Shown: piece after piece, positions 1 through 13,224 of the stretch
How positions within the stretch are numbered: position 1 is the first letter of the stretch
Layout: each line of letters begins with the position of its first letter
Assembly: GCA_913777945.1 (NCBI GenBank)
Contig: CAJYTY010000022.1
Coordinates: forward strand, 124,001 to 188,000
DNA: 64,000 nt
Source: an uncultured Acinetobacter sp.
GTDB lineage: Bacteria > Pseudomonadota > Gammaproteobacteria > Pseudomonadales > Moraxellaceae
Direction: 5' to 3'
Made by a program: the position numbers and the translations under genes
Notes under the pieces: model-generated
What the model saw: only the letters and a program-made list of their open reading frames with translations
Told to the model about the DNA's origin: nothing
Databases searched by the model: none

Positions 1-1098
1 ATCACCGACCACCTGTACAGGTGTCTTTGTGACTTGAGTTAAATGGCGTAATAAACGAGTATCCTCATCATCGGCATCCCGAAGTAAAACTAAATCAGGA
101 ACACGTCTTAAAATTGCTCGAGTTGCCTCCGCGATACTCGGTTTTATCCGATTAATATTTTGAATGTCGTATTCTTGAGCCAGTTTATGTACAACCTGTC
201 GGCTTTGATCTTGTTGTGCCTGTTGTTGTGTTTCTGCCCAAACTGCATTCGACTGAGGATTGAGCTGTAAACGGATCTGATTTATTCGCTGGATAAACTT
301 CTGCGAAATATCAAATTCTTTTAAATGGTGATATTCAATACAGCGATGCCATTGATCAATATTCTCGGCAGTAATTTCATCAGCACCCAAGGTTTCACCT
401 TCACAAATACTACGAGAGATAAGACCAGAAATGGTCGACCCCAAAATACCAGATGGAATCAACCAGTCATCACCACTGGCCGCCAACCATGCACAGCCTG
501 CAATATCAGACAAAACCACCAAAGGTAAAGGTTTCCCTGTAAAACGAGTGTCATTGCCTAAGCTACGCTGTAATTCTTGACGAATCGCGCCTTTGCCCGT
601 CCAACCATCCACAAATACAATCGATGCATGCCCATGTCTAGCGATAATGGTTTCCAACGCAGCAAAATCAATGCCACGATCTCGGATAATGCTAATGCCA
701 TAATGTTCACAGTTACAACCTAAATCTTGTATTGCATGATAAAGCAATACCCCCAAGGGTACGCCCGCACGTACAAAGCTCACCAATACAATGGGTTCAT
801 TAAATTCTACAACTAAAGTTTGTGCCAATTGCTGGACTTCTTGAGCTAAACGTTGTTGGCCTTGCTGCATGGCTTGTTCAAATAACTCTAGGTGACGTGC
901 TGTTGGCGCATTCTCCAAACTGATCATTTGTGAATAATGCTTTTCTCCTGATTGAATCAGGCGTTCTTTTTCTGCGGTATCCGTAGGTTCAATATGGGTA
1001 CGTTTAAGTAAAAAAGTGACTTGTTCTGATTGATAACTACCGCTAAACCCTTGTTCTAAAATTAATTCAGTTGCTTTATCTTTATTGATAATCGCCAT
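1..1098 (-). CDS. StiP-like protein (cysteine protease/phosphoribosyltransferase-like family of Ter islands), partial at left window edge
   Basis: Not in the ORF track because it runs off the edge. My minus-strand translation from ATG at 1098 gives MAIINKDKATELILEQGFSGSYQSEQVTFLLKRTHIEPTDTAEKERLIQSGEKHYSQMISLENAPT...IVFVDGWTGKGAIRQELQ..., open to position 1. Its start overlaps the HAD gene stop. Confidence 0.75.
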   Translation of the reverse strand, partial: MAIINKDKATELILEQGFSGSYQSEQVTFLLKRTHIEPTDTAEKERLIQSGEKHYSQMISLENAPTARHLELFEQAMQQGQQRLAQEVQQLAQTLVVEFNEPIVLVSFVRAGVPLGVLLYHAIQDLGCNCEHYGISIIRDRGIDFAALETIIARHGHASIVFVDGWTGKGAIRQELQRSLGNDTRFTGKPLPLVVLSDIAGCAWLAASGDDWLIPSGILGSTISGLISRSICEGETLGADEITAENIDQWHRCIEYHHLKEFDISQKFIQRINQIRLQLNPQSNAVWAETQQQAQQDQSRQVVHKLAQEYDIQNINRIKPSIAEATRAILRRVPDLVLLRDADDEDTRLLRHLTQVTKTPVQVVGD

Positions 1099-1909
1099 AA
1101 AATCCTTCTTGTTTGTATTGCTGGGTCAAATTATGTTTTACCCAACGATTTAATTGACTATGGTTTGGCATCCCCCACCAGTGACATAAATTCAAAAACT
1201 CTACATCAGATAAACTATCACCGAAACCAAGAATTGGGCGTTGTTGAGACGTAAACTGTTGCAATAAAAAGCGGGTAGCATTGGCTTTACTCACAGGTTG
1301 TGGAATCAGAGCCAAGTTATTGCCATTTAAATGAAAATAGAACCCATCCAAAACTGCTGGGCTCAAGCTATTTAATAATTCTGGTAAGAAATTCGGTGCA
1401 TAAGGATTATCATTTTCAGTATTTTGTTTGGCAACTACATATAGCCCTAAACCCTGCTCTTCGACCACCCAAGTACGAATAGAGCCAAAATTGATCGCCT
1501 GTTGTTGTAAAGTATCAATCAATATCTGTTGACGTTCTTGATAAAAAGTCAATGCTTGTTGCATCTGCGCATGCCAATCCAGATTTACACTGAAATCTGG
1601 ATTTAGTACGGTACCGCCATGAGAGCAAACTGCCCCATACTGAAAAGGTAAATGCACCCGAGACAATGCTTCTGCACTTCGTGCTGTGACAGGAATCAAA
1701 TGTGTACTATGTAACAACCAGTGCACGAAGTGTTGCTGAATTGGGTTCATATACGCCAATGCTTGTCCCTGTTTATCCGTAGTGACCATTTTAAAGTCTG
1801 CCTGAGGAACAATACGGCGATGGGTCTGGAATAAAGTATCATCCAGATCAACCAACATGAGCGGCGTTGCAATATTTTGCGCATCAAATAAGAAATTAGT
1901 CATTTGCAC
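1082..1909 (-). CDS. HAD-family hydrolase (Ter-island associated)
   Basis: ORF 275 aa; HAD motif I DLDDTLFQT and C-terminal GFGDSLSDVEF. Confidence 0.85.
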   Translation of the reverse strand: MQMTNFLFDAQNIATPLMLVDLDDTLFQTHRRIVPQADFKMVTTDKQGQALAYMNPIQQHFVHWLLHSTHLIPVTARSAEALSRVHLPFQYGAVCSHGGTVLNPDFSVNLDWHAQMQQALTFYQERQQILIDTLQQQAINFGSIRTWVVEEQGLGLYVVAKQNTENDNPYAPNFLPELLNSLSPAVLDGFYFHLNGNNLALIPQPVSKANATRFLLQQFTSQQRPILGFGDSLSDVEFLNLCHWWGMPNHSQLNRWVKHNLTQQYKQEGFYGDYQ

Positions 1910-3035
1910 TACATAGATTAAAATTTTGATGTGGAAATTCTACGGCACTGATCACTTCAGCATTTGGAATCGCGTCTAATAAGCTACTAGCAACGGACTC
2001 AGCACAGGTTTCCACTGTAATAAAAATTCGGTCATATTCTGATGGATTAATATTGTAGACAAAGTTTTGAATACCCAAGCCGTAGTTATCTGAAAAAGCC
2101 AAAGCAGACTGAATGGCATGCCCTATAGCTATAGGTGAGCGGGTAATCGCACTAAATTTCACCTCTGCACCCTGTCGCTGTAAATCTTCTGCCAATAAAA
2201 AAGACGACCAGACATATTCACCACTTCCCAACACTAAAATCCGTTGTTGAGGTTTAACCTTCAAACGAATATAGGCGGAAGTATCTTGAATGGGTAATCG
2301 CCCCCATGTCGGCTCAGATAAGGTCGCATACGCACCAAAAGCCACGGTATCTACTTTGGGCATATTAATCTGTAACGGTTCTTTGGCATCTTGCCACTGC
2401 CATTTGCCTGTCATCAATGCGACGGACTGACAATCTAATCCAGCCATATGAATACCTGATGACCAATCCGCCAAAGTTGCAGTTACGACATGAGACATTT
2501 GATCAAGACCAGCCGCTTGTAGTGCTGAAACTAGATTGATGAAAGTTTTTCCTGTAGACGCTTCATCATCGACCAATACAATACTTTTGCTGGCTAAAAT
2601 TTTCTTTTGAATATCAGCATCAGGCGATCCATACAGCAATTGATCTTGCGCATGGCTGTGTTCCTCTAAAAAACGAGCCAATAATGGTGCGCCCTCAACA
2701 GGATGACGAGTTGTGGTCACATACAATGCATCTGGATAGCGTTCCTGCAAGACTTGATGTACACCTGCACCTAGCCCCACAGCCGTTTCAGCCATTCCAA
2801 TCACCAAGATGGGCTCAGGTAAATTACTTGGAATCAGTTGGGCCAAATCTGTAAATGCATGACGCATCACTTTAGGACTTACAGGAATATGTCTCCCCAA
2901 AACTTTTGAGACAAATAAAAAAGCTCTTTTGGGATTTATCCGTTCGGCAAAACCGAGTAAATCTTGCCATTTCCAATGGCTATTTTCATCAGGCTGTAAA
3001 TCCAGTTTGCCTCGTTGTAATTCAATTTCAATCAT
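1896..3035 (-). CDS. Phosphoribosyltransferase-domain protein (Ter-island, TRSP/PRTase-like)
   Basis: ORF 379 aa; PRPP-loop-like IVLVDDEASTGKTF; overlaps the HAD gene. Confidence 0.75.
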   Translation of the reverse strand: MIEIELQRGKLDLQPDENSHWKWQDLLGFAERINPKRAFLFVSKVLGRHIPVSPKVMRHAFTDLAQLIPSNLPEPILVIGMAETAVGLGAGVHQVLQERYPDALYVTTTRHPVEGAPLLARFLEEHSHAQDQLLYGSPDADIQKKILASKSIVLVDDEASTGKTFINLVSALQAAGLDQMSHVVTATLADWSSGIHMAGLDCQSVALMTGKWQWQDAKEPLQINMPKVDTVAFGAYATLSEPTWGRLPIQDTSAYIRLKVKPQQRILVLGSGEYVWSSFLLAEDLQRQGAEVKFSAITRSPIAIGHAIQSALAFSDNYGLGIQNFVYNINPSEYDRIFITVETCAESVASSLLDAIPNAEVISAVEFPHQNFNLCSAND

Positions 3036-3077
3036 ATAATTCTTAAATCTAATTTAAAATAATATACATAATGGTGT

Positions 3078-4136
3078 TTATATTACACAAATACTCTGAC
3101 TTATGCTGCGGACAATGAGTGAACCTTCGGTCTTTTTGGGCTGATAATGAAGCTGTAGTGTGTGCGCAATTGCCAAATGAACTAAATTCACACCACTCAT
3201 GAAAGTATGTGCAATGCCCCCCGATGGTCGAGAGTTTACCTCCAAGATATACAATTGCTGTTGATCATTATATCGAGCCTGCATATTCACTAGCCCGTCA
3301 CAACCAAATAATGCAGCGACCTGATACGCCAGTTCAATCGCAGGATCTTCAAAAGTTAAGTTTTGACAACCATTTTTTTGCTTATAGCGTGCAATCGCAC
3401 CATGTACCTGGCCATGTATGCACAACATATCGACTGAGCACTCCAATCCAGATAGAAATGGCATGACCAAATACACAGGCGGCTTTTCTAACTGTCGATA
3501 ACTCTCAATAAAACTTTCAGGATGTGCCTTGAATCTCATGCTATTTGCAAATACATCAAATGAGTTTGCGCTAGGATCTAAATGCCAAAACCCTGAAGCA
3601 AAAACTCCTTTGGCAGGCTTGACACACACCTCACCTTTTTGTCGCCAGTCATGATATGCATCTTGTAATTGCTCGGCATTTTCAACAATGGTTGCTGGTG
3701 CAACCGCTAAGCTGTGATTCAAACAGATTTGAGTAAACAGGGATTTATCATTTAGTTGCTCGATTTGATCAAGCGTATCACAACCCGCCATGAGGCGAAT
3801 GCCCAATTGTTCAAAGCGATGTTTTTCGGCTAGATAAATTGCAGCATGATGTCCAGCAATAATCAATTTGACATTTAAGCGTTGCGCCTGCTGTAAAACC
3901 CATTCCACTCGCTCTGAGAAAGGCGGTTCTTGTAAAGCAATATCGGCAACAGAGGTAATTTCAGGACGATCGTCTGCATGTGATGCCACCACATGAATTG
4001 GGAGATTAAAAGGCGCATTTTTTGCTGCCAAAATTAAATCACGTTGACAAGAATGCGCTTGGGTAAACCAAATCCCGATCGAGTTTTCTGCGATGTCCAT
4101 CTGAGCAAGATCATTCACTATTTGCGTCATATACAT
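3078..4136 (-). CDS. ATP-grasp domain protein (Ter-island associated)
   Basis: ORF 352 aa; ATP-grasp-like segments (VCVKPAKGVFASGF, LEVNSRPSGGIAHTF). Likely start MTQIVND at about 4130. Confidence 0.75.
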   Translation of the reverse strand: MYMTQIVNDLAQMDIAENSIGIWFTQAHSCQRDLILAAKNAPFNLPIHVVASHADDRPEITSVADIALQEPPFSERVEWVLQQAQRLNVKLIIAGHHAAIYLAEKHRFEQLGIRLMAGCDTLDQIEQLNDKSLFTQICLNHSLAVAPATIVENAEQLQDAYHDWRQKGEVCVKPAKGVFASGFWHLDPSANSFDVFANSMRFKAHPESFIESYRQLEKPPVYLVMPFLSGLECSVDMLCIHGQVHGAIARYKQKNGCQNLTFEDPAIELAYQVAALFGCDGLVNMQARYNDQQQLYILEVNSRPSGGIAHTFMSGVNLVHLAIAHTLQLHYQPKKTEGSLIVRSISQSICVI

Positions 4137-5656
4137 TCCACCATTTGCACCACCACTAATCGGCCTCCATCCTGACGTGAAAGTAAAATTTGTTTTTCAT
4201 CCAGCAATTCGATTTTTTCGCCAATTGGAATGGTTGTTTTAGTTGCCACATCCATGAGATCAGGCAGATTTTCGTTCACCAGCCACCACTGATTTTGGTG
4301 AAAAACAAAATAGCCAACACGTTTGGTTTGTTCTGCTGTTAGACGCTCGTTCGGTGCAATCAGATTATTGACATGCCACGGGTAAAGTGACTGCCCTGTC
4401 CACACCATTAAACGGTGATTATCGGGTCTAAAACTGCCTTCTCGGCGTGCCGAATAGAGGTTCAGTACAGGTAGCTTGCCTTTAAAGGCTGTGCCACAAA
4501 ATGGACATACGGGTTTTATTGTATTATCAAATACATACCATTTTTGACCGCAATCACTATTTAAGCATGGCTGAATCAAATCCACCGTTTTAACCAAAGC
4601 GGTTTCCCAATCATTGGCTGAAGGCCGCTGCTGCGGTTGGTGCAAACCTGCCACAAAGCTTTGTAAAAATAGTTCCTTTAAATAGGGACCTGTCACGGTG
4701 AATGGGGTTTTTTCAGGATCGGCCCATGGTAAAGCACTTGGACGTACCTGACTGAGTTTTACCCGATTGCTTGAATCAGTTGGATGCTCAATAAATAGGG
4801 CATTCTCACCCATTGCCAGATTTTCATCGCGTTGCGGATCATTCACATCATGGATCTTGCCGCCACGCAACGGATGCCGATATAGCAAATACATGTAGAT
4901 CAATACAGCCAAAGCATGGCGATCGGTCATGATATTGGGGAGATTTCGCTGTGAGTCATCTTTTTTTAAATGATTGGTTTTTACCACTTCAGGTGCAATA
5001 AAATCAGGCGTTCCGACCACATCAGGCGGATATTTGCCAGGTACGACCAAACCATCCACATCAATTACACAGGCACTGCCAGTTACAGGATCAATCAAAA
5101 TATTCTTATAGGATAAATCTGAATGCGCCAAACCTGCTGCGTGCATACGACGTACAGCACGGGCAATCAAAATACAAATTTTTAGATAATTCGCGAAATT
5201 ACCTTTTTCTTTTTCATCTAAAAACCGATTTTGGTTATTGGCACTGGCAAACCATTTCCCTTCTTTTTCCTTACCCTTGATACCTAAAAAGTCATTATTT
5301 TTAGACCCATGTTCAAAGAAAAACTGTTTTTGGTAAGTGGGCGCGGTAATCCCCAATAAACCATTATATTCAATCAAACCATCGGGCCAGCAAAACACAT
5401 TTTTCCAATAATCCCCACCAGCACTGTTAAAAATACCTTGCCATTTATTGCCAACAATTTCCTTTAAGCGGTCCTTCTGTCTTTCTAGCTCAGCATGTGA
5501 TTGATAGAAATGGTTTTTCTCTTTGCTAAAAAAACACACCACATAAGATTTATCAGGAGAAAAATAGACATCTTTCATAGCTCCTGAGCCAATGACTTCA
5601 TCAACAAATGCAACTGGCCGACCATCTAAAGTTTGACACTGGATAATCTTAGTCAT
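4127..5656 (-). CDS. Ser/Thr protein kinase with C-terminal zinc ribbon
   Basis: ORF track 4127..5680, internal start MTKIIQCQ at 5656. Catalytic loop HSDLSYKNILI, metal-binding VIDVDGLV, APE-like APEVV, and CLNSDCGQKW...CPFCG. Confidence 0.8.
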   Translation of the reverse strand: MTKIIQCQTLDGRPVAFVDEVIGSGAMKDVYFSPDKSYVVCFFSKEKNHFYQSHAELERQKDRLKEIVGNKWQGIFNSAGGDYWKNVFCWPDGLIEYNGLLGITAPTYQKQFFFEHGSKNNDFLGIKGKEKEGKWFASANNQNRFLDEKEKGNFANYLKICILIARAVRRMHAAGLAHSDLSYKNILIDPVTGSACVIDVDGLVVPGKYPPDVVGTPDFIAPEVVKTNHLKKDDSQRNLPNIMTDRHALAVLIYMYLLYRHPLRGGKIHDVNDPQRDENLAMGENALFIEHPTDSSNRVKLSQVRPSALPWADPEKTPFTVTGPYLKELFLQSFVAGLHQPQQRPSANDWETALVKTVDLIQPCLNSDCGQKWYVFDNTIKPVCPFCGTAFKGKLPVLNLYSARREGSFRPDNHRLMVWTGQSLYPWHVNNLIAPNERLTAEQTKRVGYFVFHQNQWWLVNENLPDLMDVATKTTIPIGEKIELLDEKQILLSRQDGGRLVVVQMVECI

Positions 5657-7460
5657 GGGCAAGACCCTCCACATCCACACTCACAGGCTTATTCCATAAA
5701 ATCGCCAAAGTACGATCATCATGATGCCCTGCACTAAAGAACTTTGACCATTCCAATAAAGCCTGATCTGGGTGTAGCTGCTGTAACTGTGGTTCAATTT
5801 CTTGCCATAAGGCCTGCCATTTTTCGTGGTTCGAAAGTCCAGCATCTGTTTCAAAGCGGGGATCGGAAATACCATCTGTCATCAGAATCACAGCTTCGCA
5901 ATCATCGTAATAGCCAATATTGACGCGACTAGCAAACTGCTGTACAAAACTGCGATCTAAGAAACGGGTTTGCCCAGCAAATTCACCACCATCTGGTTTG
6001 CCCATTAAACGTACTTTATCTTTGGCATATACAGCAATCGCACCATCGCCCATCCAGAAGGTACTAATAAAGGTTCTTTGCTCGCATTGTTTCACTACAG
6101 CCACCAATAAAGTCGTGGCATACGCCTTGGCTGCAACTTGCTTTAACTCGGCTTCCTGCTCAATAGCCTCAATGGCAACTTGGGCTGTTTTATAGAAAGT
6201 ATCATGAAAATCCTTGTAAATTTGCTGCGCAACAGACTTGGTGATTTCATCATCACTGCCAACCTGCCATTGCTGCAATAAGCGATCCAGATAGGGATGA
6301 TGATGTTCGAGGTAATCTGTCAGCGTTTTGGCTGCGCTTTGCACCGCAAGTAAAGAACCTTGTCGAGAATAACTGGCACTACCAGCACCGTCTGCGACAA
6401 TCAATATTGACCAATCGGTCTCTGCAACGCGAGCAATCAGAAAATCATCATCACGGAAAGTGCCTGCGTGTTCATGTGAACGTCCGCGCTGGCTACAGGC
6501 AGCAAGGTTAAAATACTCAGTCTGAATCACTTGATGGTCACTATGTGCTTTCTGATAAGGCGCATTGATATCGGGTTCATTGACCTGCCATAGACTACGT
6601 GGATCTGCAGTAATAATAAAGGTCACTTCACCCGAAGACCATGCTTGTGCGGCTTCACTGTTTTTATACTGAAATGCCAGTTTAAATTCGCCTGCTTGCA
6701 ACGGTATGCCCTGTAACTGTTGGGTTTGATCATCAAATACTATACCTAAGTCTTCTGGAATTTTGATCGATTCAGAACAAATCAGCACGTCCTCTTTGAC
6801 TGGATATTGCATTTGAATACGTGCTTGATAGTCTTGCCCAACACGCGCATTGGGTATCTGAAAATGAGGCATTTTTTTCACCGTTTTCACCTCATAGTTT
6901 TGCTTTCCTGAGGGATTATTCTGATTGTGATCTGTATGATTTGAGTCGATATTTGCGGTCGAACTCACTAACACCAACGACGTTGTCGAGAATGACCTAG
7001 CAACGAAACCATCATTGATCAAAGAAGGCTCAGTTTCTGCATCAACAGGTGCAGACAAATAAAGTTCATCTAAAAAATCAAGCTGATCCACTGATTCCAA
7101 TGCATCAGCCTCGGTGATTGGAGTCAATGTCATTTGGGTATGATCGAATAGCGGTTGGGTTGATTCAGCACTATTGATGCTTTCAGCTTTAGAGATGTAA
7201 ACCGGCAAGCGCCCCTGCTCCAAGATGCGCTGTAGTAAAGAATGCTGAAACACTGCTGACTGTTCTAATTGAAAGCCTATTTGCTCATAAATCTGTTCAG
7301 CCAAATCATGATAGGCATTATAAATTTTTTTACTGTTTAGCAATTGATCAAGAGAATCACCATCCAGTAATAGAGGGTTCTGTTGAGTTTGATCTTGTAA
7401 CAGCTGCTTTAATGTATTTAAAAAAGCGGTCTGAACGTCAGAAGTCAAAGTTTTCGACAT
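5649..7460 (-). CDS. PP2C-family protein phosphatase with N-terminal extension including an Ig-like segment
   Basis: ORF track 5649..7478, likely start MSKTLTSD at 7460. PP2C motifs ADGAGSASYSRQGS, MGDGAIAVY, TDGISDPRFE. Confidence 0.8.
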   Translation of the reverse strand: MSKTLTSDVQTAFLNTLKQLLQDQTQQNPLLLDGDSLDQLLNSKKIYNAYHDLAEQIYEQIGFQLEQSAVFQHSLLQRILEQGRLPVYISKAESINSAESTQPLFDHTQMTLTPITEADALESVDQLDFLDELYLSAPVDAETEPSLINDGFVARSFSTTSLVLVSSTANIDSNHTDHNQNNPSGKQNYEVKTVKKMPHFQIPNARVGQDYQARIQMQYPVKEDVLICSESIKIPEDLGIVFDDQTQQLQGIPLQAGEFKLAFQYKNSEAAQAWSSGEVTFIITADPRSLWQVNEPDINAPYQKAHSDHQVIQTEYFNLAACSQRGRSHEHAGTFRDDDFLIARVAETDWSILIVADGAGSASYSRQGSLLAVQSAAKTLTDYLEHHHPYLDRLLQQWQVGSDDEITKSVAQQIYKDFHDTFYKTAQVAIEAIEQEAELKQVAAKAYATTLLVAVVKQCEQRTFISTFWMGDGAIAVYAKDKVRLMGKPDGGEFAGQTRFLDRSFVQQFASRVNIGYYDDCEAVILMTDGISDPRFETDAGLSNHEKWQALWQEIEPQLQQLHPDQALLEWSKFFSAGHHDDRTLAILWNKPVSVDVEGLAHD

Positions 7461-7481
7461 GGCTTTTCCTAGATCCAATTG

Positions 7482-8540
7482 TTAACCACGTCCTCGTTGG
7501 ACATCGAAGCCATCCATTCCACCATAACCAAAACTGACTTGGCGACGACACCATGGGCAAGTCACATCCTCGCTAAAACCGTCATAGCACATCAATTGGC
7601 CACAACCACACATGGCAAAAGCTGTTTCAGCCAAACAATGTGGGCATTCTGGAGTACCTTGTAATAGCGTGGTATTGACCTGCTGCTGATGTTGGGTTTG
7701 ATCAGACCAGGTAAAATAATCCTCATCAATCTTGCAGCATTCGGTTAATTGAAAATGATATAAATTCAGGCTGATATTTAAATCTTGAGGCGCTTGATAC
7801 TGAATTTCACGCTCAAATTTCATTAAATAAGGTCGACTCAGCTTGCCACAGCGCCCCACAAAAGTAACACAATTTTCATCCATCAAGATTTTCTTGGCGG
7901 GCAAATCCTTGACCAGACGCATATAACGCTCATCAATTGGCGGTAAATGATCTTGTTGCTGTCCATCCCCAATACTTTTACTTTGTGCAACCACAGAAGC
8001 ACTAATCCATTGGAAAAATTTTTTAAAGTCTTGTTCATTCAACTCATCAAAAGCAATACAGTGCTCTGTTAGTTGCTTGAGCGTTGCATAATCAACGTTT
8101 TTACCCATTCCTAAGGCAATCAGCGTACAGCGTCTTGCATATTTCTTTTGCCAACGGTAAATCGCATCTTTACATTCATCAGTCGGACGACCATCTGTAA
8201 ATAAATAGACGATTGGCTTCCAATCCCCTTTGGTTTGTTCCGTTGTTTTAATCAAATGACGATCAAATTCATTCATCAAATGTTCCAAGGCTTTACCTAA
8301 ATGTGTTCCGCCACCCAAAGGTAATTTCGCGGGGTAATAAGCAAACACTTCAACTAACGGAACTAAGGTACGAACAATCCCTGCAAAGGCAATAACGGAA
8401 ACATAGACGGTTTCCAAGGCATATGGATCTTGACGTAATTGTTGCATAATCAACTGGATGCCTTGTTGCATCTGTTGAATATTTTGCCCCGCCATCGACT
8501 CAGAACAATCCAATACGAAAAAAACAGGTAAACGGCGCAT
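7482..8540 (-). CDS. TerY-like vWA protein with C-terminal zinc-binding (TerY-C-like) domain
   Basis: ORF 352 aa; MIDAS DCSES; TDGRPTDE; C-terminal CPHC...CGCG...CPWC. Confidence 0.85.
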   Translation of the reverse strand: MRRLPVFFVLDCSESMAGQNIQQMQQGIQLIMQQLRQDPYALETVYVSVIAFAGIVRTLVPLVEVFAYYPAKLPLGGGTHLGKALEHLMNEFDRHLIKTTEQTKGDWKPIVYLFTDGRPTDECKDAIYRWQKKYARRCTLIALGMGKNVDYATLKQLTEHCIAFDELNEQDFKKFFQWISASVVAQSKSIGDGQQQDHLPPIDERYMRLVKDLPAKKILMDENCVTFVGRCGKLSRPYLMKFEREIQYQAPQDLNISLNLYHFQLTECCKIDEDYFTWSDQTQHQQQVNTTLLQGTPECPHCLAETAFAMCGCGQLMCYDGFSEDVTCPWCRRQVSFGYGGMDGFDVQRGRG

Positions 8541-8574
8541 CTTCTGATTATCCTTAATGTATTCTTTATTTTAT

Positions 8575-9210
8575 TTACAACACCAATTGCACTTCCGGCG
8601 GCGGTGGCGGCAATGAAACAGATCCTGAAATCCCTGCACTACTGCTTCCCACCACAACACTGGCAGACACCCACTTGAAGAATCCTGCAAAAGAGGCCGC
8701 ATCCATGGTATCCAATACCACGACTTTATTGGTCAGTTGTAAGAGATGGTCCTGCTTGGCTTTTGGCCCAGCGGCACAGGCAACAATACTGGCAAAATTT
8801 AACTGTTGCATGACAGGAATCGCTTGTTGGTAAGCATAGACATCAGACGGCGAGCCGTCAGTCATCATAAACAATAGTGGACGCCAATCCCCTTTCACCT
8901 CATCGGTACTTTTCTGCAATTGCTGAGTAACTTGCTCAGCCAACAACTCAAGTGCAGCGCCCATAAAAGTTGCACCTGCACTCGGCACATCGATATCAGT
9001 AAGCTGTACTTGATCCAAAGGCGTTAAAGGCAAATAAACCCTCGCCTCCAAATCAAAGGTGATAATACTTAAATGCACGCTCTCCAACGCATAAGGGTCT
9101 TGGCGCAATGCACTCAACATGGACTGTAAGCCGACGTTCACCGAATGAATTGGCTCACCTCGCATCGATCCTGAGGTATCTAATAAAATATAAACGGGTA
9201 AACGGCGCAT
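8575..9210 (-). CDS. TerY-like vWA domain protein
   Basis: MRRLPVYILLDTSGSM (MIDAS DTSGS), TDGSPSD; C-terminus SLPPPPPEVQLVL. Confidence 0.9.
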   Translation of the reverse strand: MRRLPVYILLDTSGSMRGEPIHSVNVGLQSMLSALRQDPYALESVHLSIITFDLEARVYLPLTPLDQVQLTDIDVPSAGATFMGAALELLAEQVTQQLQKSTDEVKGDWRPLLFMMTDGSPSDVYAYQQAIPVMQQLNFASIVACAAGPKAKQDHLLQLTNKVVVLDTMDAASFAGFFKWVSASVVVGSSSAGISGSVSLPPPPPEVQLVL

Positions 9211-9247
9211 GTTGTTCTAAACCTTTCTTTAGCCGAAAATCAAATTT

Positions 9248-9889
9248 TTAAGCGTATTGTTTTAACCATTCCACGAATGAATCAGATTGGGATGCCTGTC
9301 CTACTGCATTAAATTTCCATCCAGCTGATTCACGGACAAGTTCAGCAAACAGTAATGAACGCTGTTGATCATATTGCCCCGTGCCCGACAAATCGAAATG
9401 GACCATTTCCTTGCCTGTGGTATCAACGGCACGGATGAATGCATTTTTAACTTGCCCAAAATGTTGGTTATTTTCTGCGGCTTTATAAATTTGCACCACA
9501 AAAACCACTTTTTGGTATTGTTGATTCAGGTCATTGAGCTTCACGATAATCTGTTCATCATCGCCATCGCCCGCACCTGTACGGTTATCACCGGTTAACC
9601 AAATATGTCCAGAAGAATGCCTTTGATTATTGAAAAAGATAACATCACTATTTTCTAAGGTGGCATTACCGTGCGTATCTCGCCCTAGATTATTCACCTT
9701 GCCATTGCTCCCCACAAGGAATGCAATTACATCCAGATCATATTCAGCGCTATTACCACCAAATAATCCACCAAGAAAGCCTTTTTTCTGTTCCTGAATA
9801 TCCCAACCTAAACCAATCGTTACTTGAGACAAATTATTTTCAGTTTTACTTAAACTTATGCCTTGACCTTTATTTAAACTCACAGCCAT
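9248..9889 (-). CDS. terD: TerD-family protein
   Basis: GQGISLSK, GLGWD, YDLDVIAFLV, TGAGDGDDEQI motifs of the TerD/CABP family. Confidence 0.9.
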   Translation of the reverse strand: MAVSLNKGQGISLSKTENNLSQVTIGLGWDIQEQKKGFLGGLFGGNSAEYDLDVIAFLVGSNGKVNNLGRDTHGNATLENSDVIFFNNQRHSSGHIWLTGDNRTGAGDGDDEQIIVKLNDLNQQYQKVVFVVQIYKAAENNQHFGQVKNAFIRAVDTTGKEMVHFDLSGTGQYDQQRSLLFAELVRESAGWKFNAVGQASQSDSFVEWLKQYA

Positions 9890-9923
9890 GATTTTACCCT
9901 CTTATTTAATTTGTGTTTTGCTT

Positions 9924-10562
9924 TTATAGTACGATGTTGACTTCAGGTGGTGGGGGTGGCAAATCGCCCAAACCCGAGACTTCTTTTTGTCCTGCATCCA
10001 CTTTCTGGCTACCAGTTGAAATACTGGCAGAAACCCATTTAAAAAAAGCTTTAATTGTATTTGAATCTGCCGTTGCTAACTCAACAACAACTTCAGTGAT
10101 TTGTTTTAAAATTGAAGTATCGGCGCCATGTCCTGCTGCACAGGCCACAATTACTCCTGTTCTCACTTGTTGTAAACGCTGCAAACCTTTTCGCCAATCA
10201 TCTGTAGGCACCCCATCAGTCATAATGAAAATCAAAGGTTTCCAATCGCCTTTAACATCAACTGTGGTTTTCGCTACTTCCTGTTCAATTTTATCGGCTA
10301 ACAACGCTAAAGCACCACCCAATGCTGTAGTACCTGTAACTTGGAAATCTGGCGCTTGGAAAACAGCCAACTCAGTTAAAGGAACTAACTGTTTGGCTTG
10401 GCTGTCGAAACTAATTAAAGACAAATAAGCCGTTTCCAATGCATAAGGATCTTGACGTAACGTCGAAAGTAAAATTTGCACCCCATTTTTGACAGCTTCT
10501 ATAGGCTCACCATGCATAGAACCTGAGGTATCAAGTAATAAATAAACTGGTAAACGACGCAT
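9924..10562 (-). CDS. TerY-like vWA domain protein (paralog of 8575..9210)
   Basis: MRRLPVYLLLDTSGSM; TDGVPTDD; C-terminus DLPPPPPEVNIVL. Confidence 0.9.
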   Translation of the reverse strand: MRRLPVYLLLDTSGSMHGEPIEAVKNGVQILLSTLRQDPYALETAYLSLISFDSQAKQLVPLTELAVFQAPDFQVTGTTALGGALALLADKIEQEVAKTTVDVKGDWKPLIFIMTDGVPTDDWRKGLQRLQQVRTGVIVACAAGHGADTSILKQITEVVVELATADSNTIKAFFKWVSASISTGSQKVDAGQKEVSGLGDLPPPPPEVNIVL

Positions 10563-11023
10563 TATTTTTTTCCGTAATTTATATTATTAATAGTAGTATC
10601 ATTCTTACCATATTTTTCTTTACTGAACCATATTAAATAGACTGAACTGTATATTTTTTTTGACATCAAGTTCCAATTTAATTTAAAAAAATTTAATAAA
10701 TCCAAATACTAATTAATCTATATCTATTTTTTGGGAGCGAGGAACATGCAGACCTATAGGTATTCTAAACAGATACATAAATTTTTAAAAACTTTTCCAA
10801 TCAATCACATAAACTTCAACTTATCTTAAGAAAATTTTCACGATGACCAATAATCATTTTAAACTCCTGTATAAATATAAATCTTGCTTATGATAAGTTT
10901 CGCTAATGATTTTTCATGCTTGGTCGACACGGTATCCTAATTTTTACCAACACACTATCACTGTTAATTTATTGGAATACTCATATATATTAAATAGAGA
11001 TTTTAATTAAATATTTTTAAAAA

Positions 11024-11047
11024 AATAGGCCCGGAAGCCTATTCTAA
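11024..11047 (-). terminator. Rho-independent terminator of dnaX
   Basis: Minus strand AATAGGC-TTCCGG-GCCTATT followed by a T run, just past the dnaX stop. Confidence 0.8.
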
Positions 11048-11058
11048 AATAATAGTAT

Positions 11059-13224
11059 TTACTTCAATTGAATACTCTGTAATTGACCATCGAAAGTATC
11101 TAGTAGTGATTTCACCACCTTGTTTTCACTCATCAAGGTTACCGCACGTTGGAAAGCTTTTTCTTTACGCTCTGACTGTTTGATAAACGGCGTAATTGAG
11201 GCCACTTCACCATATTGCACTTTAAACTGTGTGTTTGGCCAACGAGTGATCAACTCGGATTCAAGCGCATGTTGTAACTGAGACAACATACCTTCATATT
11301 GCTGAGGAATAATAAAAATACTGGTGCCATCAATTTGCCCAGTCATCAATCCATATTGAGCGAGCTCTTGCACTGCAGGTGAAAGTTGACTGCCTCTAAA
11401 CCAAAACTCCCATTTTTCAAGTGTCCACTCACCTTCAAGTACCTGTTCTTGAAGTTTCAAAATGTCTTGAGGCATTAGGTTATTAGGCTCAAGCGCTTCG
11501 CTACTCACATCCGCGTTAATTCCATGGGCTTGAAGAGGTTCATTTTCTAGCACTGGCTCAATGTTGCTTAGATTTGACTCTTCAACAGCAAGCGCAGAAG
11601 TGTCTTCAATAGGCTGACCAAATAAATCAGTAGGTACATCGGACGCTACATCAGTTAAGGTTTGTAATTTTGGTTGTTCGAGATTTTCCTCTGGCTGAAG
11701 CTCGGTTTCTACTGGAAAAAGCGACATATCTTGTACGCTCAGTGCAGGCTCAACTGTGCTAGGTTCTAGACCGATTAATCCATCTGTTTCAATATCAAAA
11801 ACCAAAACATCTGAATTTTCAGGTTCAGTTATAAGAGCTTGCTCAGAAACTGTATGATTGAGCACCACGTCATCCGACTCAACGTCGAGCGCTGATTCTT
11901 CGAAATGCTCTGGTATTGGTGTTGGCTCTGCTTGAGCTGACGGCGCTTCAGTTAAGCGCTGTTCATGACTTTCATCAACTGCTTCTATTTCTTGTATAGA
12001 TTGCTTAGATTCTAAGGCGGTATGTGTATGACTATTCGGTTCACCCGTTTCAGCTGATTCAACTGAAACAGTGGTCGTACTGTGTGTAGAATGCTCCAGA
12101 GTGGTAGGTGCAGATTCGTGCACCACAATTTCATCGAGGGCCAATGGGCGAAACGCCAGCAGGCGTAGTACACACATCTCGAAGCCCTGCTCCTGAGTCA
12201 CCGCGAGCTGAAGTTCGGCACGTCCTTTACAGGCGATTTGGTAATAGAGCTGCAAATCTTGTGCAGATACAGTTTTCGACAGTGCAAGTATTTTTTGATT
12301 AATTTCGTCGCTATATTTTAAGCTTAGTTCAGGCAGATACTGAAGCAATGCCAGCTCGTGTAATGTCGAAATCAATTGATCAAGCACCAGCGATACATCG
12401 AGCGCTTGTTGTCGAAATTGCATTAACAACTGACTGACGCGCTGCGGGGCATTTTGATGGATTGCCAGAATCAGATCATAAATAATAGTACGATCAATTA
12501 GCCCCAGCATTTCTTTAACATCTCGATGCTGAATTTCACCCTGACCATAGGCAATCGCCTGATCGGTCAGTGACAAAGCATCACGTAAAGAACCTTGCGC
12601 CGATTCAGCGATTTGCCAAATAGCGTCTTTTTCGGCTGAAATATCTTCTTTGGTTAAAATTTCGGTCAAATGCGATGTAATCTCATCGACTGCCAGCGGG
12701 CGCAAAGTAAATTGTAAGCATCTTGAAATCACCGTGATCGGAAGCTTTTGCGGATCGGTGGTGGCAAATAAGAATTTGACGTGTTCAGGTGGCTCTTCAA
12801 GTGTTTTGAGCAAGGCATTAAATGAATGCGTCGATAACATATGCACTTCATCAATCAAGTACACCTTAAAGCGCCCTTGAGTCGGTGCGTAAGGAACATT
12901 ATCCAGCAGCTCTCGAGTGTCTTCTACTTTGGTTCGAGAAGCAGCATCAATCTCGATCAAATCAATAAACCGGCCTTCATTTACAGCCTTACAGGTCGTA
13001 CAAACTTCACATGGTGTAGAGGTAATGCCAGTTTCACAGTTTAAACACTTCGCCAGAATACGGGCGATTGTAGTTTTACCTACGCCACGTGTTCCGGTAA
13101 ATAAGTAGGCATGATGCAAGCGGCCACGTTCAAGCGCACTCGTAAGCGCACGAGACACATGATTTTGACCCACGAGTTCGATAAAGTTTCGTGGACGATA
13201 TTTTCTGGCCAGTACTTGATACAT
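11059..13224 (-). CDS. dnaX: DNA polymerase III subunit gamma/tau
   Basis: ORF track 11059..13287; likely start MYQVLARKYRPRNF at 13224; HAYLFTGTRGVGKTTIAR, zinc-module cysteines, LIDEVHMLS. Confidence 0.95.
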   Translation of the reverse strand: MYQVLARKYRPRNFIELVGQNHVSRALTSALERGRLHHAYLFTGTRGVGKTTIARILAKCLNCETGITSTPCEVCTTCKAVNEGRFIDLIEIDAASRTKVEDTRELLDNVPYAPTQGRFKVYLIDEVHMLSTHSFNALLKTLEEPPEHVKFLFATTDPQKLPITVISRCLQFTLRPLAVDEITSHLTEILTKEDISAEKDAIWQIAESAQGSLRDALSLTDQAIAYGQGEIQHRDVKEMLGLIDRTIIYDLILAIHQNAPQRVSQLLMQFRQQALDVSLVLDQLISTLHELALLQYLPELSLKYSDEINQKILALSKTVSAQDLQLYYQIACKGRAELQLAVTQEQGFEMCVLRLLAFRPLALDEIVVHESAPTTLEHSTHSTTTVSVESAETGEPNSHTHTALESKQSIQEIEAVDESHEQRLTEAPSAQAEPTPIPEHFEESALDVESDDVVLNHTVSEQALITEPENSDVLVFDIETDGLIGLEPSTVEPALSVQDMSLFPVETELQPEENLEQPKLQTLTDVASDVPTDLFGQPIEDTSALAVEESNLSNIEPVLENEPLQAHGINADVSSEALEPNNLMPQDILKLQEQVLEGEWTLEKWEFWFRGSQLSPAVQELAQYGLMTGQIDGTSIFIIPQQYEGMLSQLQHALESELITRWPNTQFKVQYGEVASITPFIKQSERKEKAFQRAVTLMSENKVVKSLLDTFDGQLQSIQLK

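Follow-up and report, generated by a model that had tools for sequence, protein, structure and literature searches.

An accessory, recently gained 18-gene Ter cluster with predicted TerY signalling and biosynthetic modules in an uncultured Acinetobacter

The scheme for Ter systems that Anantharaman, Iyer and Aravind reportedly set out in 2012 includes, among its parts, a predicted Ter membrane/Ca2+ complex, signalling by vWA, kinase, and PP2C proteins, and a module for a nucleoside-like metabolite. In Klebsiella and on enterobacterial plasmids, the complete ter locus comprises terZABCDEF and a 14-gene set that includes terXYW; terZ-F is enough to make E. coli tellurite-resistant (PMC8115787). 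Envelope stress tolerance is also affected by ter (PMC9933665), and terC affects resistance to tellurite and zinc (PMC12054061). For plasmid R478, phage inhibition and colicin resistance have been ascribed to its ter cluster (Whelan 1995, as cited in PMC9933665). Ter components including signal-making PRTases and HADs, as well as a Ter system in phage ME3, have been described (PMC7824862).

The stretch of DNA analysed here (the window, 64,000 nucleotides, C22:124001-188000 with C22 denoting contig CAJYTY010000022.1) comes from a 2.49 Mb assembly, 64% complete, of an uncultured Acinetobacter sp. A first-pass annotation regarded its first ten genes as a poorly described island with an attached enzymatic module. 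That description does not hold: the locus is a known kind of system, described in the literature, and its three modules in combination make up the complete ter locus usually found in Klebsiella and on enterobacterial plasmids (PMC8115787).

Gene content and modules of the array

Ten consecutive minus-strand genes, overlapping or nearly abutting, had been proposed at the start of the window, and all ten ORFs are present there, with intergenic gaps of -32 to +42 bp. Each of the ten proteins matches a Pfam family above the curated cut-off and in agreement with its earlier label; the weakest matches are those of the kinase (37.6 bits, cut-off 31.7) and the HAD protein (28.0 bits, cut-off 20.9). 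The labels needed refinement in that the "zinc domain" is TerY_C, the PRTase also has a TRSP domain, and StiP is fused to Pelota. The features, in window positions, are as follows.

9924..10562 (-): TerY-like vWA protein (TerY1), first gene of the array, with the metal-ion motif DTSGS (ORF and Pfam)
9248..9889 (-): TerD-domain protein in a TerX-like position (Pfam; match to the TerX position on the Lelliottia plasmid)
8575..9210 (-): TerY-like vWA protein (TerY2) (ORF and Pfam)
7482..8540 (-): vWA protein with a TerY_C metal-binding domain (TerY3) (PF15616, 183 bits)
5649..7478 (-): PP2C-family protein phosphatase with a variable N-terminal extension (PF13672; identity profile)
4127..5680 (-): protein kinase with HSDLSYKN and DVDG motifs (PF00069)
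3078..4136 (-): ATPgrasp_Ter ligase, first gene of the predicted biosynthetic module (PF15632)
1896..3035 (-): PRTase_2 with a C-terminal TRSP domain and the PRPP loop VDDEASTGKT (PF15609, PF12500; fold match to APRT/PyrR/OPRT)
1082..1909 (-): HAD phosphatase (PF08282)
1..1098 (-): StiP with Pelota domain, truncated by the window edge; the whole gene, C22:123947-125098 (L007:15947-17098), encodes 383 aa (PF11202, PF15608)
11018..11043 (-): terminator-like stem-loop, AATAGGC-TTCCGG-GCCTATT and then a T run, between dnaX and the array (read from the sequence; absent from the automatic scan's list)
1..11075 (no strand): in-window part of the 18.5 kb stretch missing from sister genome G091; whole stretch C22:116554-135075 (genome alignment)

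The domains look intact, and so do the motifs read directly from the sequence: DxSxS in the vWA proteins, HSDLSYKN and DVDG in the kinase, DGAGS in the phosphatase, VDDEASTGKT in the PRTase, and DLDDT in the HAD protein. The TerD_b model matches solved TerD structures, and the structural matches of the PRTase_2 model (mean pLDDT 67) are adenine and orotate phosphoribosyltransferases and PyrR. In the PP2C protein (window 5649-7478), the first ~180 residues are poorly conserved from cluster to cluster, unlike the catalytic part; the variable region could be a sensor or a linker.

The locus extends beyond window position 1 by eight more co-directional genes, leftward to C22:116642, and the full array comprises 18 genes on a single strand (C22:116642-134562). 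To the left of StiP lie, in order, genes for a C-C_Bond_Lyase (CitE-like), a TerA-like protein (a double TerD), TerD, TerC (DUF475), TerD, TerF (TerD plus vWA; PF10138, 262 bits), AIM24, and TerD. All six TerD matches in the genome fall within C22:116684-133889, and the array unites the TerD family and the TerC-family membrane protein of a Ter core, along with TerF and TerA; gaps of 60-88 bp are present between genes in this part. The adjoining TerA/C/D/F genes show that the earlier identification of the locus as Ter-associated was correct.

The ten window genes are the upstream part of this 18-gene Ter cluster and belong to two of its modules. By domain content, one is a putative TerY-type signalling module (vWA, TerD, vWA, vWA-TerY_C, PP2C, kinase), in which the vWA-TerY_C, PP2C, and kinase genes are adjacent and in the order found on plasmids. 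The other is a predicted nucleoside-like biosynthesis module, with the genes for ATPgrasp_Ter, PRTase_2-TRSP, HAD, StiP-Pelota, and the CitE-like C-C_Bond_Lyase adjacent to one another.

The first-pass annotation had asked whether TerC, TerB, or TelA homologs continue the locus leftward, which proved true of TerC. TerB has no match in the genome (64% complete) and, with plasmid TerB as query, none in the array, and the TelA gene lies unlinked to the Ter cluster at C8:623209-624183 (L046). TerB is likewise unmatched in the other Acinetobacter clusters inspected; it is a usual Ter member that is not strictly required. TerW is not found in the 18-gene cluster.

The right flank of the array is dnaX, and the left flank consists of a 4HBT thioesterase and an iron-type alcohol dehydrogenase, so that its neighbours are core genes rather than a defence island. 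No upstream element conserved across clusters was found beyond the start region, because the window and A. baylyi diverge upstream from the other clusters.

Nested distribution and recent gain

Among 176 Acinetobacter species genomes, TerF was found above cut-off in 34, StiP in 29, and TerY_C in 23. TerF is present in all StiP genomes and StiP in all TerY_C genomes. Across the genus, the modules form a nested series of core, then biosynthesis, then TerY signalling, which suggests a dependency order. The closest StiP relatives found are those of A. baylyi (97%) and of A. proteolyticus, A. higginsii, Acinetobacter sp. Ac_5812, and A. gyllenbergii (90-92%).

Eleven genomes encode a TerY_C close to that of the window (E below 1e-53) on the same strand as StiP and ~7 kb away from it. 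Nine of these eleven clusters, the window's included, are placed between dnaX and the dehydrogenase, here ~18-19 kb apart; the other two were left unplaced (G033, contig break; G134, not listed for dnaX). The remaining twelve TerY_C-positive genomes have TerY_C on the strand opposite to StiP or, in G025 and G153, ~150-170 kb away from it. In one cluster (L033, G145), matches to the first vWA gene fall in two frames, possibly due to a frameshift or an assembly error; in another (L037, G123), the gene was not found. Five species have TerF without StiP. A stand-alone seven-gene core, TerA-TerD-TerC-TerD-TerF-AIM24-TerD, is found in G152 (L035, 6234-12043), where the other modules are absent.

In sister G091 and other species with no cluster at the site, more than ten in all, dnaX and the dehydrogenase are separated by only ~475-500 bp, which leaves room for the thioesterase gene alone. 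The site in G091 is empty between dnaX and the thioesterase gene: the flanks align at 98.6% and 98.3%, 82 bp there correspond to 18.5 kb in the window genome, and each break point lies within a flanking gene, a few codons from its end. At the DNA level, the ter genes are 90–100% identical to those of A. baylyi, as against 74% for the dehydrogenase, 76% for the thioesterase, and 81% for dnaX (over half its length). Based on the empty site and this contrast, the cluster was gained recently, from a relative. Other species with the same cluster type show ter genes at 84-97% and flanking genes at 71-75%. Compared to G145, the TerY part has 87-94% DNA identity and the remaining ter genes 70-85%, indicating that modules also recombine.

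The alignments fit transfer of the whole array from one species to another, with homologous recombination within the flanking core genes as the inferred mechanism. A transposon- or integrase-borne island is disfavoured: the ends of the 18.5 kb stretch have only a 10-bp A/T string in common, with no inverted repeats of at least 10 bp, no integrase was seen, and the placed clusters of this type are all at one site. The first-pass annotation had proposed variable presence between related strains as a defence-island test, with a core locus syntenic in all relatives as the contrary outcome. The cluster is accessory, as seen from StiP in 29 of the 176 species and from the empty sister site, but such variability is not specific to defence.

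Proposed function and alternative readings

The reading that we favour, at a probability of roughly 0.6, is a complete, co-directional 18-gene Ter cluster, recently acquired by homologous recombination, in which relay, metabolite, and submembrane protection work as proposed. Judging from the protein families and the prediction noted at the outset, the vWA/TerY proteins, kinase, and PP2C would sense chemical, envelope, or phage stress and relay it via reversible phosphorylation; the ATP-grasp, PRTase-like proteins, HAD, and CitE-like lyase may produce a nucleoside-like signal or effector; and the Ca2+-binding TerD, TerA, and TerF, with membrane TerC (DUF475) and AIM24, would form a submembrane complex that executes protection. 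We count in its favour the domains, the leftward continuation, co-occurrence on plasmids, the nesting, the empty site, the identity contrast with A. baylyi, the TerD_b structure match, and the published effects of ter on tellurite resistance and envelope stress tolerance (PMC8115787, PMC9933665), and against it the missing TerB and TerW, the DUF475 family of TerC, and, as regards co-transcription of all 18 genes, the 60-88 bp core gaps.

It is unlikely, though conceivable, that the cluster serves primarily in anti-phage defence, the TerY relay detecting infection, a nucleoside-like product triggering a block at the membrane against entry or superinfection by phages, and tellurite resistance being a by-product. 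The accessory, horizontally moved cluster is consistent with such a role, as are the Ter components in phage ME3 (PMC7824862) and the phage inhibition and colicin resistance attributed to R478 ter (Whelan 1995, as cited in PMC9933665). However, a cluster for metal or stress resistance would just as well be expected to be accessory, the neighbours are core genes, and PADLOC gave no system-specific match, returning only weak generic kinase matches and none for seven of the left-hand proteins, StiP included.

Rather unlikely is an operon chiefly for metal/tellurite resistance, in which the TerC-TerD core is the active part and the other two modules serve just for tuning. TerF is found without StiP in five species (with the core standing alone in the one inspected, G152), terZ-F alone gives tellurite resistance in E. 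coli (PMC8115787), and terC affects both tellurite and zinc resistance (PMC12054061). Against this, one or both extra modules are kept in 24 to 29 of the 34 TerF-positive species and travel together with the core, a pattern suggestive of more than a tuning role.

StiP is labelled a cysteine protease by Pfam (the name of PF11202) and in plasmid annotations. No cysteine is invariant across 12 diverse members aligned; C253 is the most conserved, yet it is missing in relatives L041 and L043, two members in which activity may have been lost. The StiP motifs RAGxPxG and FVDGWxGKG line up with PRTase_2 loops, FVDGWTGKGAI aligning with the PRPP loop, at a profile probability of only 22%, and one of the 12 members has a weak Pribosyltran match (E 0.11). 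The StiP model (mean pLDDT 72) has a beta-alpha order compatible with a PRTase core. Given the weak profile alignment and this modelled order, the assignment of StiP as a PRTase is only suggestive. Nearly all of the best 50 Foldseek matches of the model reflect the Pelota/L7Ae domain and not the N-terminal fold, and the C-terminal part matches L7Ae/kink-turn proteins in the fold search. It is quite improbable, but compatible with these features, that the biosynthetic module acts on RNA instead of producing a free nucleoside, with a degenerate PRTase-like StiP, targeted to RNA by its L7Ae/kink-turn-like part, acting with PRTase_2-TRSP to change a base in a structured RNA on a stress signal from the TerY kinase/phosphatase.

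A single-protein search found no StiP relatives in viral contigs; an alignment-based search found three. In IMG/VR contig 3300019373_000210 (L043:299-14363), a StiP/PRTase_2/HAD/ATP-grasp/lyase module adjoins FtsK-like, vWA, Sel1, macro-domain, and ADP-ribosylglycohydrolase genes, and the gene after these resembles, by eye, a phage coat protein. This is possibly a prophage-borne form of the module linked to ADP-ribose enzymes. Record MT836648.1 (L041:1-15378, labelled "Bacteriophage sp.") has a StiP/PRTase/lyase/TelA-like/TerD array beside moaC-like and tatD-like genes and looks like bacterial chromosome rather than phage.

That the ten genes are an independent system merely beside a ter operon is barely credible: the TerY part has recombined on its own (seen in its identity to G145), and TerY_C and StiP are far apart in G025 and G153, but the genes run on into TerA-F, TerY_C never occurs without StiP nor StiP without TerF in the 176 species, and the same partners are joined on plasmids.

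Comparison with described Ter systems

As far as citing papers describe the 2012 scheme, the present cluster shares its predicted parts, and nothing in the cluster was found to fall outside it. What this locus adds is a full cluster anatomy, an empty site with recent transfer, and a nested distribution of modules. Plasmids commonly carry Ter clusters, with StiP relatives on 2,568 and TerY-module DNA on 2,369, mainly from Klebsiella, Escherichia, Enterobacter, and Salmonella.

All three modules are common to the Acinetobacter cluster and the Klebsiella/enterobacterial plasmid ter locus (PMC8115787). A Lelliottia IncFII plasmid carries all three, with the same gene order in the TerY module (vWA-TerD-vWA-TerY_C-PP2C-kinase) and in the biosynthetic module (ATP-grasp-PRTase-HAD-StiP-lyase). 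Unlike the plasmid locus, the 18 Acinetobacter genes form one array on one strand, with AIM24 added. The plasmid TerB, TerW, and DUF4236 genes have no match in the cluster, and its TerC is of the DUF475 type, unmatched by plasmid TerC; the proteins of the two are 33-73% identical. Acinetobacter phage vB_AbaM_ME3 (PMC7824862) contains TerC, TerD, PRTase_2, HAD, and StiP in a single array, as confirmed by our search, with TerD and the enzymes 24-36% and TerC 55% identical to those of the cluster. The TerY module, ATP-grasp, and lyase are unmatched in the stretch of the phage examined, and the macro-domain annotated in ME3 gave no Pfam match.

The closest counterpart is the ter cluster of A. baylyi DSM 14961 (L009, L027/L028), with the same 18 genes in the same order at the same chromosomal site and 90-100% DNA identity per gene. 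Its flanking core genes are only 74-81% identical, and the host lineages are therefore distant. A. baylyi is a laboratory species with natural transformability. With three modules in one co-directional array, nearly identical in that species, module function is open to genetic dissection.
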